A stretch of DNA of 64,000 nucleotides from Streptomyces sp. CG1 (GTDB taxonomy: Bacteria > Actinomycetota > Actinomycetes > Streptomycetales > Streptomycetaceae). The stretch lies in NCBI RefSeq assembly GCF_041080625.1, contig NZ_CP163518.1, positions 9,045,501-9,109,500 on the forward strand. The letters run 5' to 3'. The position numbers and the translations under genes were made by a program. How positions within the stretch are numbered: the stretch's first letter is position 1; every line of letters starts with the position of its first letter. Below the pieces are notes generated by a model that saw only the letters and a list, made by a program, of their open reading frames with translations, searched no databases and was not told where the DNA came from. Below, piece after piece: positions 40,002-47,466 of the stretch.

Positions 40002-40763
40002 TCAGCGCGCCGCCAGCTCCAGTATCTGAGGCTCGGCCGGCACCCGCACCGCCGTGCGGGACGTCCGCCACAGCCACAGCACATCCCGGCCGAAGGACCA
40101 CAACAGCGAACCCAGGGCCACCAGCACGATCGCCAGGCTGGCCAGGTGGGGGAGCAGCTCGGCGCCCGCCAGGAGCAGGGCGATGCCCTGGACCGCGGCG
40201 ACGGTCTTGCGGGCGAAGGACGGCGGCAGCGGGGCGTTCAGCCACGGGGCCAGGCGGGCCGCGGCGACGAAGGCGTACCGCATCCCGCCGATCAGCAGCA
40301 CCCACGGGCCGAGCTGCATGGCCACGTACACGCTCAGCACGAGGATCAGAAACGCGTCGACCTCCATGTCGAAACGGGCGCCGAGCGCGGTCGACGTACC
40401 GGTGCGCCGGGCCACCTTGCCGTCGACGCCGTCCAGGAGCAGGGCCGTCGCGGTCAATCCGACCAGCAGGGTCACCGGCGGCGCGCTCTCGAAGGAGTCC
40501 GCGACCAGTGCGGTCACCCCGCCCACCAGGGTCGCCCGGCCGAGCGTGACCCGGTTCGCGGGACCGAAGGAGCGCAGGCAGGAGCGGTGCAGGGCGCGGG
40601 CCAGCACCGCCCAGGTGGCGAACGCGAACGCCAGGCCCGTCAGCCAGCCGGCCGGGCCCATGCCTATCGCCGTGCCGAGCAACGCGAGCAGCAGGAGCTG
40701 AACTCCCGCTCCCACAGCGGTCTCCTGCTGAGGCCTCGCGTCATATGTGTTGTTCAGGGCCAC
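40002..40763 (-). CDS. CDP-alcohol phosphatidyltransferase family protein
   Basis: 253 residues, about six hydrophobic segments. The family signature D-x2-D-G-x2-A-R-x8-G-x3-D-x3-D is complete in DGVDGKVARRTGTSTALG followed by ARFDMEVD, so it should be catalytically competent. These membrane enzymes move a phospho-alcohol from CDP-diacylglycerol or a CDP-linked donor to an alcohol. GTG start at 40763 with GGAGGG 6 bases upstream. Divergent from, and probably co-regulated with, the 40870 gene cluster; it could attach a head group in that pathway, but the alcohol is unknown. Confidence 0.85.
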   Translation of the reverse strand: MALNNTYDARPQQETAVGAGVQLLLLALLGTAIGMGPAGWLTGLAFAFATWAVLARALHRSCLRSFGPANRVTLGRATLVGGVTALVADSFESAPPVTLLVGLTATALLLDGVDGKVARRTGTSTALGARFDMEVDAFLILVLSVYVAMQLGPWVLLIGGMRYAFVAAARLAPWLNAPLPPSFARKTVAAVQGIALLLAGAELLPHLASLAIVLVALGSLLWSFGRDVLWLWRTSRTAVRVPAEPQILELAAR

Positions 40764-40869
40764 CGCACACCCTCCGGCCGAGTGACAGAGTCGATCACGC
40801 CGCGTACTCTGCGCGGCCTGTGCACTTCTCGGTACGTGAACAACTTGCCTACTGTTCAGGAGGATGCCG

Positions 40870-41859
40870 ATGAACCGCTCGGCCCGCGCGTTCTGGCTGC
40901 GCTCACCCGGCCACGGCGAGCTGCGCGACATCACTCTCGCGGAGCCCGCCGAGGACGAGGTCCTGGTGCGCGCCCTGTACTCCGGCGTGAGCCGCGGCAC
41001 GGAGACGCTCGTCTTCCGCGGCGGGGTCCCGGAGAGCCAACACGCCGTGATGCGGGCGCCGTTCCAGGAGGGCGACTTCCCGGGCCCGGTGAAGTACGGC
41101 TATCTCAGCGTCGGCACGGTGGAGGAGGGTCCGGCTGAGCTGATCGGGCGTACGGTCTTCTGCCTGTATCCCCACCAGAGCCGTTACGTCGTTCCGGTGA
41201 CCGCCGTGACCGTCGTGCCCGAGCGGGTGCCCGCCGCGCGGGCCGTGCTCGCCGGCACCGTGGAGACCGCCGTGAACGCCCTGTGGGACGCGGCGCCGCT
41301 GATCGGCGACCGGATCGCGGTGGTCGGCGGCGGCATGGTCGGCTGCTCGGTGGCGGCGCTGCTCGCCCGCTTCCCCGGCGTACGGCTGCAGCTCGTCGAC
41401 GCCGACCCGGCCCGCGCGAAGACCGCCGAGGCGCTCGGCGTGGAGTTCGCGACGCCCGACGGCGCCCTCGGCGACTGCGACCTGGTCGTGCACGCCAGCG
41501 CCACCGAGGCCGGCCTCACCGGCGCCCTGCGGCTCCTCGCGCCCGAGGGCACCGTCGTGGAACTGAGCTGGTACGGCGACCGGCGCATCGCCCTGCCGCT
41601 CGGCGAGGCCTTCCACTCCCGCCGCCTCACCCTGCGCAGCAGCCAGGTCGGCACCGTCTCCCCGGCCGCCCGCGCCGGCCGCGACTACGCCGACCGGATG
41701 GCGCTCGCCCTCGACCTGCTCGCCGACCCCGCACTCGACGCCCTCATCACCGGCGAGAGCGTTTTCGAGCAACTCCCGGACGTCATGCCGAAGCTCGCCT
41801 CCGGTGAGATTCCCGCCCTGTGCCACCGGATCCGGTACGCCGGGACGGGCCTGACCTGA
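40870..41859 (+). CDS. MDR-type zinc-binding-dehydrogenase-like oxidoreductase
   Basis: 329 residues. Medium-chain dehydrogenase fold: VLVRALYSGVSRGTETLVFRGG at the N-terminus, Rossmann motif IAVVGGGMVGCSVAALLARFPGV (about 145-167), LVVHASATEAGLTGALRLLAPEGTVVELSWYG. The usual structural-zinc cysteine lobe is absent. Start at ATG 40870, 6 bases after AGGAGG; the ATG at 40864 abuts it. First gene of the rightward cluster with the PTPS-like, glycosyltransferase, methyltransferase and flippase-like genes. Substrate unknown. Confidence 0.8.
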   Translation: MNRSARAFWLRSPGHGELRDITLAEPAEDEVLVRALYSGVSRGTETLVFRGGVPESQHAVMRAPFQEGDFPGPVKYGYLSVGTVEEGPAELIGRTVFCLYPHQSRYVVPVTAVTVVPERVPAARAVLAGTVETAVNALWDAAPLIGDRIAVVGGGMVGCSVAALLARFPGVRLQLVDADPARAKTAEALGVEFATPDGALGDCDLVVHASATEAGLTGALRLLAPEGTVVELSWYGDRRIALPLGEAFHSRRLTLRSSQVGTVSPAARAGRDYADRMALALDLLADPALDALITGESVFEQLPDVMPKLASGEIPALCHRIRYAGTGLT

Positions 41860-41984
41860 GAAAAGAGTGAGAGAGACCTGAACGCGGGAAAGCGAAGAGC
41901 CGTACTACACGACATCCCCCGCCGGGTAAGGACAGCCGGGTAAGGACAAGGGGACCAGACGCGTCGTACCTGGAGGGTCGTCCG

Positions 41985-42383
41985 TTGTTCAGCATCACCG
42001 TCCGCGATCACATCATGATCGCCCACAGCTTCCGCGGCGAGGTGTTCGGGCCCGCGCAGCGACTGCACGGCGCCACGTTCCTGGTGGACGCCACCTTCCG
42101 CCGCGAGCAGCTGGACGAGGACAACATCGTGGTCGACATCGGCCTGGCCACGCAGGAACTGCGCCTCATCACCGCCGAGCTGAACTACCGCAACCTCGAC
42201 GACGAACCCGAGTTCGCCGGCATCAACACCTCCACCGAGTTCCTCGCCAAGGTGATCGCCGACCGGCTCGCCGAACGCATCCACAAGGGCGCCCTCGGCG
42301 AGGGCGCCAAGGGCCTCACGGGCCTCACGGTCACCCTGCACGAGTCGCACATCGCCTGGGCGAGTTACGAGCGTGGCCTGTGA
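41985..42383 (+). CDS. 6-pyruvoyltetrahydropterin synthase / QueD-like protein
   Basis: 132 residues, the size of a single T-fold subunit. TTG start at 41985 with GGAGGG about 8 bases upstream. The first zinc His is kept (IMIAHSF, H14) and so is the second (H28), but the usual H-G-H reads HGA, so the third ligand is Ala30, and no Cys is present at the catalytic position. C-terminal [13 protein letters not shown] keeps a Glu/His pair. The fold is clear, but the chemistry is likely changed from that of PTPS or QueD. Overlaps the glycosyltransferase frame by GTGA. Confidence 0.85.
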
Positions 42384-42481
42384 CCGGGGCGACCACGCGG
42401 CGGACACGTCTGTCGTACGTGCCGGCGCAGCCCATCGCCGTGGACAAGGCCACCTCCGACGAGAAGGCCGGAATCATCCCC

Positions 42482-43579
42482 ATGTCCCTGCGCACCGTGC
42501 ACTTCGTCCTGCCGGGCGGCGTCGACGACCCGGCCGCGCCCAGCGGCGGCAACGCCTACGACCGCCGGGTCTGCCTGGACCTGCCCGGCTTCGGCTGGCA
42601 GGTCACCCGGCACACCGCGCCCGGCAGTTGGCCGCGCCCCGACCGGGCCGCCCGCGACCAGCTCGCCCGCACCCTGCGGGACCTGCCGGACGACGCGGTC
42701 GTCCTGCTGGACGGGATCGTGGCCTGCGGAATCCCGGAGACCATCGCCCCGGAGGCCGACCGGCTGCGCCTCGCGGTACTGGTCCATCTGCCGCTCGGCG
42801 ACGAGACCGGCCTCGACCCGGCCGTCGCCGCCGACCTGGACGCCCGCGAACGCGCCGTGCTGCGTACCGTGCCCGCCGTCGTCGCGACCAGCGACTGGGC
42901 GGTGCGCCGGCTCGTCTCGCATCACGGACTGGCCCCCGAACGGGCGCATGTCGCCGCGCCCGGCGCCGACATCGCGCCGCTCGCACCCGGCACCGACGGC
43001 GTCTCCCGGCTGGTGTGCGTGGCCGCCGTCACCCCGCGCAAGGGCCAGCACCGGCTCGTGGAGGCGCTCGCGGCGGTCCGGGAACTGCCGTGGACCTGCG
43101 AGCTGGTCGGCGGACTCGGCCATGACCCCGGCTACGTCGGCCGGCTGCGCACCCTCATCGACCGGCACGGCCTCGCCGACCGGCTGCACCTGACCGGCCC
43201 GCGCTCCGGGGCGGACCTCGACGCCACGTACGCCGCCGCCGACCTGATGGTCCTCACCTCCTACGCCGAGACCTACGGCATGGCGGTCACCGAGGCCCTG
43301 GCCCGCGGCATCCCGGTCCTCGCCACCGATGTGGGCGGAGTGCCGGAGGCGGTGGGACGCGCTCCCGACGGCGGGGTGCCCGGCATCCTCGTCCCGCCGG
43401 AGGACCCGGCCGCGCTCGCCGCCGAACTGCGCGGCTGGTTCGGCGAACCCGACGTACGCCGCCGGCTCAAGGCCGCGGCCCGCGGCCGCCGCGCCGCGCT
43501 CGACGGCTGGGCCGCCACCGCCCGCAGCCTGGCCGCGGTCCTCGCCCGACTCCCCGAAGCCCCGAGGAGGGCGGCATGA
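42482..43579 (+). CDS. Family 4-type glycosyltransferase
   Basis: 365 residues (GT-B fold). FVLPGGVDDPAAPSGGNAYDRRV binds at the N-terminal domain. In the C-terminal domain VCVAAVTPRKGQHRLVEALA and DLMVLTSYAETYGMAVTEALARGIPVLATDVGGVPEAV carry the E-x7-E nucleotide-sugar site of GT4. Start: MSLRTVHF at 42482 is where homologous sequence begins. The frame is open back to GTG 42380, which overlaps the PTPS stop, and translation could begin there. Likely adds a sugar to the cluster's product. Stop overlaps the methyltransferase start (ATGA). Confidence 0.85.
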   Translation: MSLRTVHFVLPGGVDDPAAPSGGNAYDRRVCLDLPGFGWQVTRHTAPGSWPRPDRAARDQLARTLRDLPDDAVVLLDGIVACGIPETIAPEADRLRLAVLVHLPLGDETGLDPAVAADLDARERAVLRTVPAVVATSDWAVRRLVSHHGLAPERAHVAAPGADIAPLAPGTDGVSRLVCVAAVTPRKGQHRLVEALAAVRELPWTCELVGGLGHDPGYVGRLRTLIDRHGLADRLHLTGPRSGADLDATYAAADLMVLTSYAETYGMAVTEALARGIPVLATDVGGVPEAVGRAPDGGVPGILVPPEDPAALAAELRGWFGEPDVRRRLKAAARGRRAALDGWAATARSLAAVLARLPEAPRRAA

Positions 43580-44742
43580 CCAGGCCGGAGACCAGGACGA
43601 ACGGCGCGGCGAACGGCATGGCGCCGGGCGGGCAGAGGCAGGTGGAGCCGGTGCGTGACGTCGGTCGTGGCGAGGCTCGAACGCCGGTCGCTCCGGCGCG
43701 TGCGGAGGCGTCCGGGAGCGGCCCCGTGAGACCTGCGGCGGCGGACGGATCCGTGAGCGGTCGCGTGAGCCCTGCGGAGGCGGGCGGTGCCGTCGGCGCC
43801 GATGATGGCGGAGTGCGTGGTGTGGACTCCTCGGTCGTCGCCGGGGCCGGGCCCGTCGGGTGTCCCGGTGAGCGGGCCACCGTACGGCTGCGCGACAGCG
43901 AGCCCGAGGAACCGCCCCGGTACGCGCCCGAATGGCTGCGGTTGCGGGAAATTGCCGACGCGGACGCCCGCGCGCTGGACCTGCTGGACCCGTTGCGGAT
44001 CCGGCTGGCGAACCTGCCGGGCGGCACCGGCGCACTGGCCGTGCACGACCTGGGCTGCGGCACCGGCTCGATGGGCCGCTGGCTCGCGCCCCGCCTGGAC
44101 GGACCCCAGCACTGGGTCCTGCACGACCGCGACCCCTATCTGCTGCACTTCGCCGCCGCGGCCTCCCCGCACGCCGCCGCCGACGGCAGCGGCGTCACCG
44201 TCGAGACACGGCGCGGCGACGTGGCCCGGCTGACCCCGGACGCGCTGGCCGGCGCCTCGCTGGTCACCGCCTCCGCGCTGCTCGACGTCCTCACCTGTGA
44301 GGAGGTCGCCACCCTCGCCGACGCCTGCGCCGGGGCCGGCTGTCCCGCGCTGCTCACGCTGTCCGTCGTCGGACGCGTCGAACTCACCCCGGCCGACCCG
44401 CTGGACGCGGAGATCACCGAGGCGTTCAACGCCCATCAGCGGCGCGGCGGGCTGCTCGGCCCGGACGCGGTCACCGTGGCCGCCGAGGCGTTCGCCGCGA
44501 GGGGGGCCACCGTGCGAGTGCACCAGAGCCCGTGGCGGCTCGGGTCCGCGGAGGCGACGCTGACCGAGCAGTGGCTGCGCGGCTGGGTGGGCGCGGCCGT
44601 GGAGGAGTGGCCCGAGCTGGGCGACCGGGCGGAGCGCTATCTGCGGGACCGGCTCGCCGCCTGCGCCGCCGGTGAACTGCGGGTCGTGGTCCACCACAGC
44701 GACCTGCTGGCCCTGCCCCGGCCGACGGGCGGGGCGTCATGA
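43576..44742 (+). CDS. SAM-dependent methyltransferase
   Basis: 388 residues. Residues 1-110 are low-complexity Arg/Gly/Ala-rich and not conserved in type. The Rossmann methyltransferase begins near 115, with motif I VHDLGCGTGSMGRWLAPRL, motif II WVLHDRDPYLL, and LVTASALLDVLTCEEVATLA as motif IV/V. GAGGAGG precedes the ATG. ATGA overlaps on both sides couple it to the glycosyltransferase and the membrane protein. A sugar or heterocycle O/N-methyltransferase is likely; the acceptor is unknown. Confidence 0.82.
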   Translation: MTRPETRTNGAANGMAPGGQRQVEPVRDVGRGEARTPVAPARAEASGSGPVRPAAADGSVSGRVSPAEAGGAVGADDGGVRGVDSSVVAGAGPVGCPGERATVRLRDSEPEEPPRYAPEWLRLREIADADARALDLLDPLRIRLANLPGGTGALAVHDLGCGTGSMGRWLAPRLDGPQHWVLHDRDPYLLHFAAAASPHAAADGSGVTVETRRGDVARLTPDALAGASLVTASALLDVLTCEEVATLADACAGAGCPALLTLSVVGRVELTPADPLDAEITEAFNAHQRRGGLLGPDAVTVAAEAFAARGATVRVHQSPWRLGSAEATLTEQWLRGWVGAAVEEWPELGDRAERYLRDRLAACAAGELRVVVHHSDLLALPRPTGGAS

Positions 44743-46100
44743 CCACACGGTCGGCCGCGACGCAGGCCGAGCACCGGGTCACCCGAACGGGCCCCCACGC
44801 GCGCGTGCCCGACTCCGGGCCGGCCGGCGCGTGCGTGTACGGCACCGGAACGGTCCACGCGCGCGTGCACACCGCGGCGGGCACGGGGCACGCAACGTAC
44901 GAGTCCGGCACCGGGCCCCAGGAACCGCCGCCCGCGCGTCCCGCGACCGCACCCGAGGCCGTACAGCCATCGCCCCCTGCCCCCCGCCGTCCCGGCCTTC
45001 GCGCGCTGCGTACGCACTTGGGCAGTGTCGTCGGTGCGGTCATCCTCGGTGTTCTGCTGTGGCGGCTCGGCACCGGTGTGCTGCTCGACGGGCTGCGGCG
45101 GATCGACGCCGTGACGGTACTGGCCGCGCTGGGCATCGGCGTGGTCACCACCGTGCTCAGCGCCTGGCGTTGGCAGCTGGTGGCCCGCGGCCTGCGCATC
45201 CGGCTGCCGCTCGGGTCCGCCGTTGCGGACTACTACCGGGCACTGTTCCTGAACGCGGCGCTGCCCGGCGGGATCCTGGGCGACGTGCATCGTGCGGTCC
45301 GGCACGGACAGAGCGCCGGTGACCTGCGGCGCGGGGTCAAGGCGGTCGTCCTGGAGCGCGTCGCCGGGCAGATCGCGCTGGCCGTGTTCGCCGCGGCGGT
45401 GCTGCCGACCCTGCCGTCCCCGGTCCGGGCCGAGGCCCGCGACCTCGCCGCGCCGGTGGCGTTCGCCGTGGCCGGCGCGTTCGCCATAGGCCTCGCCGTC
45501 CGGATGAACCGTGCGCCCTCGCGCCGCGCCGGGAGCCTCGGCACCGCCCTCGGCGAGGCCCGCCGCGGCCTGCTGTCCCGCCGGGGCGGACCGGGCATCG
45601 CCCTGTCCTCCGCCGTCGTCCTGGCCGGGCACCTGGCGATGTTCGTGCTGGCCGCCAGGGTCGCCGGCTCCGCCGCCCCGGTCGTGGTGCTGGTCCCGCT
45701 CGCCGTCCTCGCCCTGGTCGCCATGGGGCTGCCGCTGAACGTCGGCGGCTTCGGCCCCCGCGAGGGCGTGGCCGCCTGGGCGTTCGGCGCGGCGGGGCTC
45801 GACGCGGGCACCGGGGTCGCCGTCGCCGTCGTGTACGGCGTGCTCAGCTTCGTGGCGAGCCTGCCCGGCGCCGTCGTCCTCGCCGTGCGCTGGTACGGCG
45901 GTCTGCGCGGCGCGACCGGCACGGCGGACCCCGCCGCAGCCGCCGTGACCGGTGGCCCCGCAGCCGACTACCCGCGTTCCCGCGCGGAGGTGAGCAGCCC
46001 GAAATACGACGCGAAGGATTCCGCCAGGGCCGCCAGCAGTTCCTTCCCCTTTTCCGCCGACCCCAGGGAAGGACGGCCGATGACGCCCGATTCGGTATAG
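44739..46100 (+). CDS. Flippase-like (UPF0104/LPG synthase TM-domain) membrane protein
   Basis: 453 residues. A 90-residue polar N-terminus with repeated A-R-V-x-motifs, then about eight membrane segments (from LGSVVGAVILGVLLW to VLAVRWYGGL) with LNAALPGGILGDVHRAVRHG and LPLNVGGFGPREGVAAWAFG, as in the lysylphosphatidylglycerol-synthase-like flippase family. The last 65 residues are read over the end of the opposite gene (45968-46756) and look like read-through rather than a folded domain. It could move a lipid-linked or glycosylated product across the membrane. Confidence 0.78.
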   Translation: MTTRSAATQAEHRVTRTGPHARVPDSGPAGACVYGTGTVHARVHTAAGTGHATYESGTGPQEPPPARPATAPEAVQPSPPAPRRPGLRALRTHLGSVVGAVILGVLLWRLGTGVLLDGLRRIDAVTVLAALGIGVVTTVLSAWRWQLVARGLRIRLPLGSAVADYYRALFLNAALPGGILGDVHRAVRHGQSAGDLRRGVKAVVLERVAGQIALAVFAAAVLPTLPSPVRAEARDLAAPVAFAVAGAFAIGLAVRMNRAPSRRAGSLGTALGEARRGLLSRRGGPGIALSSAVVLAGHLAMFVLAARVAGSAAPVVVLVPLAVLALVAMGLPLNVGGFGPREGVAAWAFGAAGLDAGTGVAVAVVYGVLSFVASLPGAVVLAVRWYGGLRGATGTADPAAAAVTGGPAADYPRSRAEVSSPKYDAKDSARAASSSFPFSADPREGRPMTPDSV

Positions 46101-46756
46101 GCGGACATTCCCACGGTGAGCAGATGACGACGGTCGTCAGCGGTGAAATCGGCGGACTCGTAACCAGGGCGGACGAATTCGGGATGAGCGTGCAGCAGAA
46201 TCGAGGTCTCGATTTCCCCCGCGTGCATGTCGGTGAGCAGCGAGGTGCGCACCCCCGCCCGCTCCCGCGCCGCCTCCCAGTCCTCGGCGGCCGGGAACAA
46301 CGCCATCCGCTCACCGCGCGCGGACGCCTCCTGGACGACGTTGCCCAGGACGTAGTTGCCGCCGTGCCCGTTGACCACGACGAGCGCGTCGACGCCCGAA
46401 CGGCGCAGCGACGCCGCGATGTCCGAGACCACCGCATGGAGGGTCACGGCGGAGATGCTGACGGTCCCCGGCCATTGCGCATGCTCGTGCGAGCAGGAGA
46501 CCGTCACCGGAGGAAGGAGGTGCACCGGGTACGCGGCGGCGATCTCCCGCGCCACGGCACAGGCGACGAGCGTGTCGGTCGCCAGCGGAAGGAACGGACC
46601 GTGCTGTTCGAAACTGCCGACGGGAAGGACCGCGACCTGTGCTGAAACGCCCGCCCCCCGCGCCGTCACGTCGTCCGTGGTGTCCGTCGGCACCACCCCG
46701 TACGCCACGCCGTTCGTCCCCCCACCTGCCGCGGTACGCGCGCCCGAACCACTCAT
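45968..46756 (-). CDS. Creatininase-family amidohydrolase (FAPy deformylase-like)
   Basis: 262 residues. Metal-site motifs of the family: LPVGSFEQHGPFLPLATD (E50, H52, D61), VVNGHGGN (H131) and MHAGEIETS (E181). Relatives include creatininase, MftE and ArfB, which removes formate from the FAPy nucleotide made by archaeal-type GTP cyclohydrolases. The gene is divergent from a GTP cyclohydrolase II variant with only 38 bases between the starts, which supports the ArfB-like role. AAAGG lies upstream of the ATG. Its 3' end overlaps the opposite membrane-protein gene by 133 bases. Confidence 0.85.
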   Translation of the reverse strand: MSGSGARTAAGGGTNGVAYGVVPTDTTDDVTARGAGVSAQVAVLPVGSFEQHGPFLPLATDTLVACAVAREIAAAYPVHLLPPVTVSCSHEHAQWPGTVSISAVTLHAVVSDIAASLRRSGVDALVVVNGHGGNYVLGNVVQEASARGERMALFPAAEDWEAARERAGVRTSLLTDMHAGEIETSILLHAHPEFVRPGYESADFTADDRRHLLTVGMSAYTESGVIGRPSLGSAEKGKELLAALAESFASYFGLLTSARERG

Positions 46757-46794
46757 CTTTTCACGGCCTTTCGTCTCTGTTTAGGAATCAGATC

Positions 46795-47466
46795 ATGACA
46801 GAAAACACCGGCGTCAACCTCGGCGTACTCGGCACGAAGTCCCCGCGGCGTTCGGGTGCGGAACGCGTGGTGAATGCACCGCTGCCCACCGTGTACGGGA
46901 AATTCCAGGCGATCGGCTACCTGGACCACGACCGCGGTGACGAGCAAGTGGCCCTGGTGTACGGCGAGATCGGCACCGAGAACGTGCTGACCCGGCTGCA
47001 CTCGGAGTGCCTGACCGGGGACGCGTTCGGCTCCCGGCACTGCGAGTGCGGCGACCAGCTGGCCTCGGCGCTGCGTGCCGTCGTCGCCGAAGGCAGCGGC
47101 ATCGTCGTCTACTTGAGGGGCCACGAAGGCCGTGGCATCGGACTGCTCGCCAAGCTGCGCGCGATGGCCCTGCAGGCGGAGGGTCTGGACACGGTCGAGG
47201 CGAACCTCGCGCTCGGCCTGCCCGTCGACGCCCGCGACTACCGCGTCGCGGCCGAGATCCTGCGCGACCTCGGGGTGCGCTCGGTGCGGCTGATGTCCAA
47301 CAACCCGCGCAAGCGGGAGGCGCTGGTCCGGCACGGCATCCAGGTCACCGAGCGGGTGCCGCTGCTGATCGAGCCGTGCGAGAGCAACATCACCTATCTG
47401 CGCACCAAGCGGGAGCGGCTGGACCACATCCTGCCCCATCTGGACGCTGTCGCCCACGGCTCCTGA
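46795..47466 (+). CDS. ribA: GTP cyclohydrolase II variant (Met in place of active-site Tyr)
   Basis: 223 residues. Zinc cysteines in SECLTGDAFGSRHCECGDQL, the Arg/Glu segment LRGHEGRGIGLLAKLRAMALQ, and MSNNPRKREAL are complete for GCH II. Where E. coli RibA has KIRAYALQ, this protein has KLRAMALQ: Met124 replaces the active-site Tyr. From memory, a S. coelicolor paralogue with this change makes the formylated FAPy product instead of the deformylated pyrimidine. No ribB/ribD/ribH genes are near, so this copy is probably not for riboflavin. ATG at 46795 with AGGAA upstream. Likely feeds the cluster at 40870-46100. Confidence 0.9.
   Translation: MTENTGVNLGVLGTKSPRRSGAERVVNAPLPTVYGKFQAIGYLDHDRGDEQVALVYGEIGTENVLTRLHSECLTGDAFGSRHCECGDQLASALRAVVAEGSGIVVYLRGHEGRGIGLLAKLRAMALQAEGLDTVEANLALGLPVDARDYRVAAEILRDLGVRSVRLMSNNPRKREALVRHGIQVTERVPLLIEPCESNITYLRTKRERLDHILPHLDAVAHGS

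Follow-up and report, generated by a model that had tools for sequence, protein, structure and literature searches.

In archaea, the enzymes ArfA, ArfB and ArfC follow a route in which the formylated aminopyrimidine nucleotide FAPy is made, deformylated by a creatininase-family enzyme and reduced before deamination. SCO6655 of Streptomyces coelicolor reportedly also makes FAPy, owing to a change of Tyr to Met (Spoonamore et al. 2006, Biochemistry 45:12144). SCO6655 is listed as GTP cyclohydrolase II (PMC2853524), and PMC3509567 mentions changed GCHII activities. The signature FGPAQ is used to define the PTPS-IV subfamily of COG0720, with PF00925 and PF01872 noted as neighbours in 2017 (PMC5445326). 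Here we describe a locus of eight genes at 40002-47466 of a 64,000-nucleotide stretch of Streptomyces sp. CG1 (the window; contig NZ_CP163518.1, positions 9,045,501 to 9,109,500), which contains both a GTP cyclohydrolase II (GCH2) and a PTPS-IV protein. We consider it somewhat probable that these genes, together with a RibD-type reductase, form one pathway that starts from GTP, passes through FAPy, deformylation and reduction, and yields a lipid-linked or membrane-handled product. Because the PTPS protein matches SCO6650 and the listed function of SCO6655 is that of GCH2, we equate the locus with SCO6648-SCO6655, the numbers in between being inferred from gene order; by the same gene numbers GCH2 would be the orthologue of SCO6655, and would share with it the reported Tyr-to-Met change. 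In the literature searched (open-licence PMC), neither the whole locus, nor a creatininase relative as partner of a Tyr-less GCH2, nor a product was described, and a search for SCO6649-SCO6654 found a single table entry. Already known are a FAPy-forming SCO6655 (reportedly), PTPS-IV with its two neighbours, and the crystal structure 3d7j. The work published on SCO6655 reportedly treats the enzyme; our comparison contributes the deformylase partner, the reductase and the remaining genes of the locus. The locus gives a probable pathway both to SCO6655, whose reported FAPy activity lacked one, and to PTPS-IV, whose structure is still labelled uncharacterized.

The window sits in an 11.1 Mb genome whose closest relatives among the matches listed are Streptomyces, and the open reading frames, Pfam and NCBIfam place the eight genes in the families that an earlier note on this DNA had assigned to them. 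Seven proteins pass their curated Pfam cut-offs: a CDP-alcohol phosphatidyltransferase (CDPAP; CDP-OH_P_transf), PTPS, a GT4 glycosyltransferase (GT4; Glycos_transf_1), a methyltransferase (MT; Methyltransf_25), a flippase-like membrane protein (FLIP; LPG_synthase_TM), a creatininase-family hydrolase (CRN; Creatininase) and GCH2 (GTP_cyclohydro2). The eighth, an MDR-type dehydrogenase (MDR), has sub-cut-off hits only, the nearest NCBIfam model being BchC (49.8 vs 291 bits). Co-occurrence across Streptomyces was looked for and found, in line with the earlier proposal that the eight serve one pathway. All eight genes stand together in 75 of the 80 named Streptomyces loci, which are the most similar of 572 confirmed stretches; four of the other five reach a contig end and one (L148) holds a lone PTPS. 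Of the 27 Streptomyces loci that we fetched, drawn from the window and from 26 of the order's 77 PTPS-positive genomes, 24 are also complete, the other three being two lone PTPS genes and one group of RibD_C, MDR and PTPS. On this comparative evidence the eight genes belong to one set and do not lie together by chance.

The core of the locus recurs in other Actinobacteria, in Proteobacteria and in Haloarchaea. The 38 loci of other Actinomycetes, which are every hit outside the genus in the class draws, hold GT4 (38), MDR (37), FLIP (31), CDPAP (30), MT (29), GCH2 (26), RibD_C (17) and CRN (12). We further fetched loci from 13 of 24 f60 genomes, in which RibD_C (13), MDR (13) and GT4 (12) prevail with a single GCH2 and no CRN, and from 7 of 12 proteobacterial and 8 of 12 haloarchaeal plasmid records. 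The proteobacterial plasmids carry MDR (7), MT (7), RibD_C (6), GT4 (6), CDPAP (3), GCH2 (3) and FLIP (2), and the haloarchaeal plasmids MDR (8), PTPS (7), GT4 (7), MT (7), CDPAP (6) and CRN (2). A Microbacterium plasmid has the whole set except CRN and GCH2, the single f62 locus (a 3.8 kb contig) has RibD_C, GT4, FLIP and GCH2, and seven weak hits of the phylum search (L221-L227) have no MDR, two of them having RibD_C with GCH2. These locus counts lean to presence because the nine family models were made from loci that were later counted with them; the searches of 147 genomes of the order for PTPS, unlinked RibD and CRN are independent of these models.

In the order, PTPS is found in 77 of 147 genomes, and all 77 lie within the 132 genomes of the window's genus. 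It occurs in 57 of 394 genomes and 25 of 137 genera of the class (29 of 197 in an earlier draw), and in 45 of 396 genomes of the phylum, with many weak matches. This frequency in the genus, and the presence of the gene in S. coelicolor, make direct testing possible. The distribution also bears on whether PTPS-IV and its neighbours serve coenzyme F420, whose synthesis uses ribitylaminopyrimidine. CofH is over its cut-off in all 147 genomes of the order against PTPS in 77, which argues that F420 can be made there without the locus, and no F420 gene name was found among the product names read in 17 annotated stretches. Although unpublished work cited in PMC5041015 places PTPS-IV in F420 synthesis, we regard this role as very unlikely and have rejected it on the distribution of CofH and PTPS.

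The strongest evidence lies in an exchange of the entry module, here GCH2 and CRN. GCH2 (46795-47466, + strand) passes PF00925 (222.1 vs 23.3 bits) and TIGR00505 (227.9 vs a cut-off of 205.85 bits), and its best solved match is RibBA 4i14. As had been read from the letters, it contains KLRAMALQ, and Met124 (codon 47164-47166) aligns with Tyr105 of PDB 2bz0, which we take to be E. coli RibA. The divergent spacer, likewise noted earlier, of 38 bases (46757-46794) separates it from CRN (45968-46756, - strand, starting at 46756; PF02633 215.7 vs 31.3 bits), the proposed FAPy deformylase. Aligned to creatininase 1q3k, CRN shows EQH, D, GHGGN and HAGEIET, presumably the metal-site residues; the earlier claim of intact metal motifs needs the correction that GHGGN replaces the GHYEN of 1q3k. 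CRN reaches no listed NCBIfam equivalog cut-off, falling below those of ArfB (NF033501, 39 vs 180 bits), MftE (135.1 vs 172 bits) and creatininase (97.1 vs 235 bits), and it could work like ArfB though it is not classed as ArfB.

We tallied the residue at the Tyr105 position across loci, leaving out the window and the two Tyr GCH2 genes of L221 and L222, which accompany weak PTPS hits without MDR. Where GCH2 stands beside CRN, the residue is not Tyr in 111 of 111 loci (Met 99, Leu 7, His 4, Gln 1), and where the stretch has no CRN it is Tyr in 18 of 19. The remaining locus, L208, has Leu, and a genome search located its CRN at G493:C1:3221878-3222540, about 13 kb from PTPS and beyond the fetched stretch; L250 also has CRN. 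By this comparison, loss of the Tyr and CRN accompany each other in every genome examined. A specific requirement for Met was dropped, because CRN is also accompanied by Leu, His or Gln and what these loci share is loss of the Tyr. With that change, the comparison supports the earlier idea of a FAPy-forming cyclohydrolase with a deformylase partner. At the genome level, 75 of the 77 PTPS-positive genomes have CRN at 64% identity or more, against none of the 70 PTPS-negative ones; this cut-off was set after the list had been inspected, and the Fisher tests on the two groups of genomes disregard relatedness.

These findings fit a two-enzyme substitute for the ordinary Tyr-type GCH2. The Tyr-less GCH2 would stop at the formylated nucleotide FAPy, made from GTP, and CRN would take off the formyl group, so that the pair would stand in for one enzyme, in parallel to the archaeal GTP cyclohydrolase IIa route. 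If so, two enzymes may take over a step otherwise done by one, and the swap is legible from a single residue. The logic proposed is that of ArfA-ArfB-ArfC; the differences are that GCH2 belongs to the bacterial family, that CRN scores far below the ArfB cut-off, and that the locus has genes without a riboflavin role. In a GCH2 tree of 65 rows, in which L094, L004 and L233 are bad long branches and the bootstrap (200 trees) is not settled, a supported group (100/99) separate from the non-Tyr rows unites L003, the own-genome copy, with 12 of 17 Tyr-type locus rows; this suits, and does not prove, displacement of one gene by another. L004 (G000:C1:8541453-8541935) is a fourth, divergent GCH2-like gene that reads KVNGMVEM at the same place, without the Tyr; a ferritin-like protein (by eye) lies upstream, and CRN was not found in the 3.5 kb fetched. 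In Haloarchaea, four of the eight stretches read have a gene named as GTP cyclohydrolase IIa next to MDR, and three of the four, all Haloarcula, also have PTPS. Both haloarchaeal proteins scanned are over the NCBIfam cut-off for this class (320 and 344.1 vs 306 bits), and by family assignment they are a non-homologous parallel to the GCH2 entry module. Enzymes of this class reportedly make formylaminopyrimidine nucleotides. In two further Haloarcula stretches a creatininase gene lies about 5 kb from MDR, and GTP cyclohydrolase IIa is not among the genes there.

The earlier gene list was correct for its eight members and incomplete, since the comparison adds a RibD-type reductase as ninth member of the set, either in the locus or, in the window genome, unlinked. 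RibD_C is not in the window locus; this genome has a reductase-deaminase RibD at 5065584-5066714. Of the 77 PTPS-positive genomes, 60 have a close full-length homologue of this unlinked RibD (E below 1e-160, the next value being 4.9e-90, a cut again set after inspection), compared with 3 of the 70 PTPS-negative ones. Among the 17 PTPS-positive genomes without it, 15 have RibD_C in the locus, and the two left are L101, with RibD_C, MDR and PTPS only, and L246, a lone PTPS. L101 (G124) is a reduced Streptomyces locus that resembles the f60 core. Counted by locus, RibD_C is present in 13 of 13 f60, 6 of 7 proteobacterial and 17 of 38 other Actinomycete loci, and in 15 of 27 fetched Streptomyces loci in addition to all eight genes; this last share is not a frequency, because six of the 27 were picked for lacking unlinked RibD. 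In L086 and other Streptomyces loci the RibD_C gene sits between FLIP and CRN. In L192 (13263-15326) and L197 (11394-12914) the GCH2 and RibD_C matches share a single reading frame without stops, so that two pathway steps appear to be fused. In our scheme the reductase would turn the ribosyl into a ribityl chain; this third step, like FAPy formation and deformylation, is deduced from the comparative evidence, on which steps 1-3 rest.

Since GCH2, a deformylase and a RibD reductase are riboflavin-type steps, and the family names point the same way, the locus might instead supply riboflavin precursors in an alternative or regulated way, or supply a flavin analogue. The genome, however, has a separate RibBA beside RibH (by eye in translations), and RibB, RibH and RibE are not among the nine window proteins that were scanned for families or the product names of the 17 stretches. 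We know of no place for MDR, PTPS-IV or GT4 in riboflavin synthesis. A second riboflavin pathway was rejected on the separate RibBA and the gene content of the locus, and a supply or analogue role of this kind seems improbable to us.

PTPS (41985-42383, + strand, TTG start) matches SCO6650 (PDB 3d7j 'Uncharacterized protein SCO6650'), its orthologue, over the full length with 117 of 132 residues identical (about 89%). The earlier description of an altered PTPS-like protein was right about the alteration, and its identity can now be given as the known PTPS-IV subfamily, with FGPAQ at residues 21-25, catalytic residues lost and GCH2 in the locus; RibD_C is found in other loci and not in this one. 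The roles of zinc ligands, Cys, dyad and anchor are established for PTPS and QueD. Across 62 diverse rows, 60 have His at the His14 and His28 positions and two are gapped there, 44 have Ala and 15 His at the position of the third zinc ligand, and Glu120, the expected pterin anchor, is Glu in all 62. That PTPS is an ordinary QueD or biopterin-type enzyme in a coincidental neighbourhood, as automatic names in public records would have it, is extremely unlikely: FGPAQ takes the place of CxxxHGH, 58 of 62 rows have Ala where the catalytic Cys would be, Tyr replaces the dyad His (of Asp-His) in 55 of 62, and the linkage of the locus is conserved. QueD (PTPS-I) in particular was rejected, as the protein reads GPAQRLHGA without CxxxHGH and scores 38.2 vs 89.25 bits on TIGR03367. 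A deazapurine-like product, suggested in the earlier note, is likewise not upheld: QueE, QueC and QueF are not among the nine scanned window proteins or the product names of the 17 stretches, and no second PTPS-family gene was found in the window genome. The 2017 description of PTPS-IV shares the FGPAQ signature and the PF00925 and PF01872 neighbourhood with our loci, and its section on the subfamily names those two neighbours only (PMC5445326); the creatininase exchange, MDR, GT4, MT, CDPAP, FLIP and the archaeal GTP cyclohydrolase IIa loci do not appear there.

MDR (40864-41859, + strand; ATG at 40864, alternative ATG at 40870) is the gene directly 5' of PTPS, in the same orientation, in 79 of the 80 named Streptomyces loci, 25 of the 27 fetched ones, 35 of 38 other Actinomycete, 13 of 13 f60, 7 of 7 proteobacterial, 7 of 8 haloarchaeal and 1 of 1 Microbacterium loci, and in none of the single f62 and seven weak-hit loci. 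On family assignments and this conserved linkage rest steps 4 and 5, both speculative. MDR may oxidise the ribityl chain, and PTPS-IV, with the anchoring Glu kept and the catalytic Cys, Asp and His lost, may promote ring closure, giving a compound like 7,8-dihydroneopterin phosphate, with a pterin-like core and a glycerol-phosphate-like tail. GT4 might then add a sugar, MT a methyl and CDPAP a phosphatidyl group, and FLIP might carry the lipid across the membrane.

For this last step the families of GT4, CDPAP and FLIP point to a lipid product. GT4 (42380-43579, + strand) matches 54 solved sequences of a broad family, including D-inositol 3-phosphate glycosyltransferase 7qsg and phosphatidylinositol mannoside enzymes. 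Phosphatidylinositol mannoside and mycothiol-type chemistry uses a CDP-alcohol transferase and a GT4 enzyme on polyol phosphates; our locus has the same pair, by analogy only, and differs in that its candidate acceptor is GTP-derived. In CDPAP (40002-40763, - strand, likely GTG start at 40763; PF01066 50.9 vs 22 bits), the motif D102-x2-DG-x2-AR-x8-G-x3-D-x3-D is invariant in 22 rows that span Actinobacteria, Proteobacteria and one haloarchaeon, and the Agrobacterium relative is nearest PgsA yet below its cut-off (43.4 vs 109.1 bits). FLIP (44739-46100, + strand) scores 109.9 bits on PF03706. MT (43576-44742, + strand), a class I S-adenosylmethionine methyltransferase, is weak on Methyltransf_25 (28.9 vs 27 bits), and PF13649 is matched in 20 of 21 members of the family at E 0.01. 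As one hint on expression, SCO6652, which by gene order would be MT, is listed with the values 0.8, 4.3 and 4.1 in an S. coelicolor mycelium transcriptome table (PMC3610822).

The product may be a phospholipid-linked pteridine or aminopyrimidine glycoconjugate. We tentatively entertain a larger idea, which we hold to be possible though rather doubtful, of a new membrane-lipid class common to Bacteria and Archaea, with a GTP-derived pterin or ribitylaminopyrimidine head group that is glycosylated, methylated and flipped outward, and with ring closure by PTPS-IV without GTP cyclohydrolase I. If true, two domains of life would share a novel kind of membrane lipid derived from GTP, and the cytochrome b genes in three of seven proteobacterial stretches would fit a redox-active lipid. 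The same entry could also lead to a water-soluble secreted metabolite, a glycosylated and methylated pterin or aminopyrimidine, with CDPAP and the flippase-like protein accessory or used for export. In favour of this, 11 of 13 f60 loci match RibD_C, MDR, PTPS and GT4 and none of the other five models, and CDPAP was not found in four of seven proteobacterial stretches; CDPAP in 30 and FLIP in 31 of the 38 other Actinomycete loci, and CDPAP in six of eight haloarchaeal ones, speak for a membrane product. We give the soluble metabolite a minor but real chance.

Several observations weigh against a single pathway with a membrane product. Reducing the side chain and then re-oxidising it is roundabout. 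The models of MT, FLIP and CDPAP match none of the 13 f60 loci, so the lipid arm is not universal. Most of the 111 CRN-linked GCH2 rows are close Streptomyces relatives, and the CRN label on the GCH2 tree needs two changes, or one change in 42% of the 200 bootstrap trees; independent events are thus few, and the association of Tyr loss and CRN in bacteria could rest on one or two of them. Four PTPS-negative genomes carry CRN-like proteins at 59-62% identity. For the reductase, 26 further genomes, 24 of them PTPS-negative, hold weaker RibD homologues, so its profile depends on the cut. The unlinked RibD may serve other chemistry, since it includes a deaminase domain and a Tyr-type GCH2 stands about 0.8 kb away, beyond a regulator-like gene; this RibD is also below TIGR01508 (archaeal-type diaminopyrimidine reductase), its best model (134.8 vs 186.45 bits). 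Finally, the GTP cyclohydrolase IIa stretches were chosen in part for that name, which 5 of the 12 haloarchaeal records showed, the three loci that combine this enzyme with PTPS, all Haloarcula, are close kin, and CRN is in none of the four haloarchaeal stretches with the enzyme.

In the window, PTPS, GT4, MT and FLIP are joined head to tail by four-base overlaps, and the coordinates and start codons confirm the coupling noted earlier, with GTGA between PTPS and GT4 and ATGA at both GT4/MT and MT/FLIP. FLIP and CRN are convergent and share 133 bases (45968-46100). CDPAP and MDR diverge from an intergenic region at 40764-40863, in which AGGAGG lies just 5' of the MDR start.

A few further features were noted in the other stretches. 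In one f60 locus scanned, the gene after GT4, common to 9 of 12 f60 loci, is a methyltransferase of another type. Lone PTPS-IV copies, without other genes of the set in the stretch, occur in L081, L148, L240 and L246; in L240, a Streptomyces anthocyanicus plasmid, the gene lies beside cupin and MEKHLA-domain genes, perhaps a reuse in another cluster. The cytochrome b genes are those of Thiodictyon, Agrobacterium and Peteryoungia (L231, L233 and L258), and the Agrobacterium one is of the b561 type by Pfam. Thiodictyon and Agrobacterium also have a sulfatase-like protein in common (Pfam below cut-off or none), and a Peteryoungia gene is annotated as sulfatase. The Haloarcula loci L236, L254 and L255 also carry a gene for a Gfo/Idh/MocA oxidoreductase and, slightly farther away, one for a PAP2-family phosphatase.

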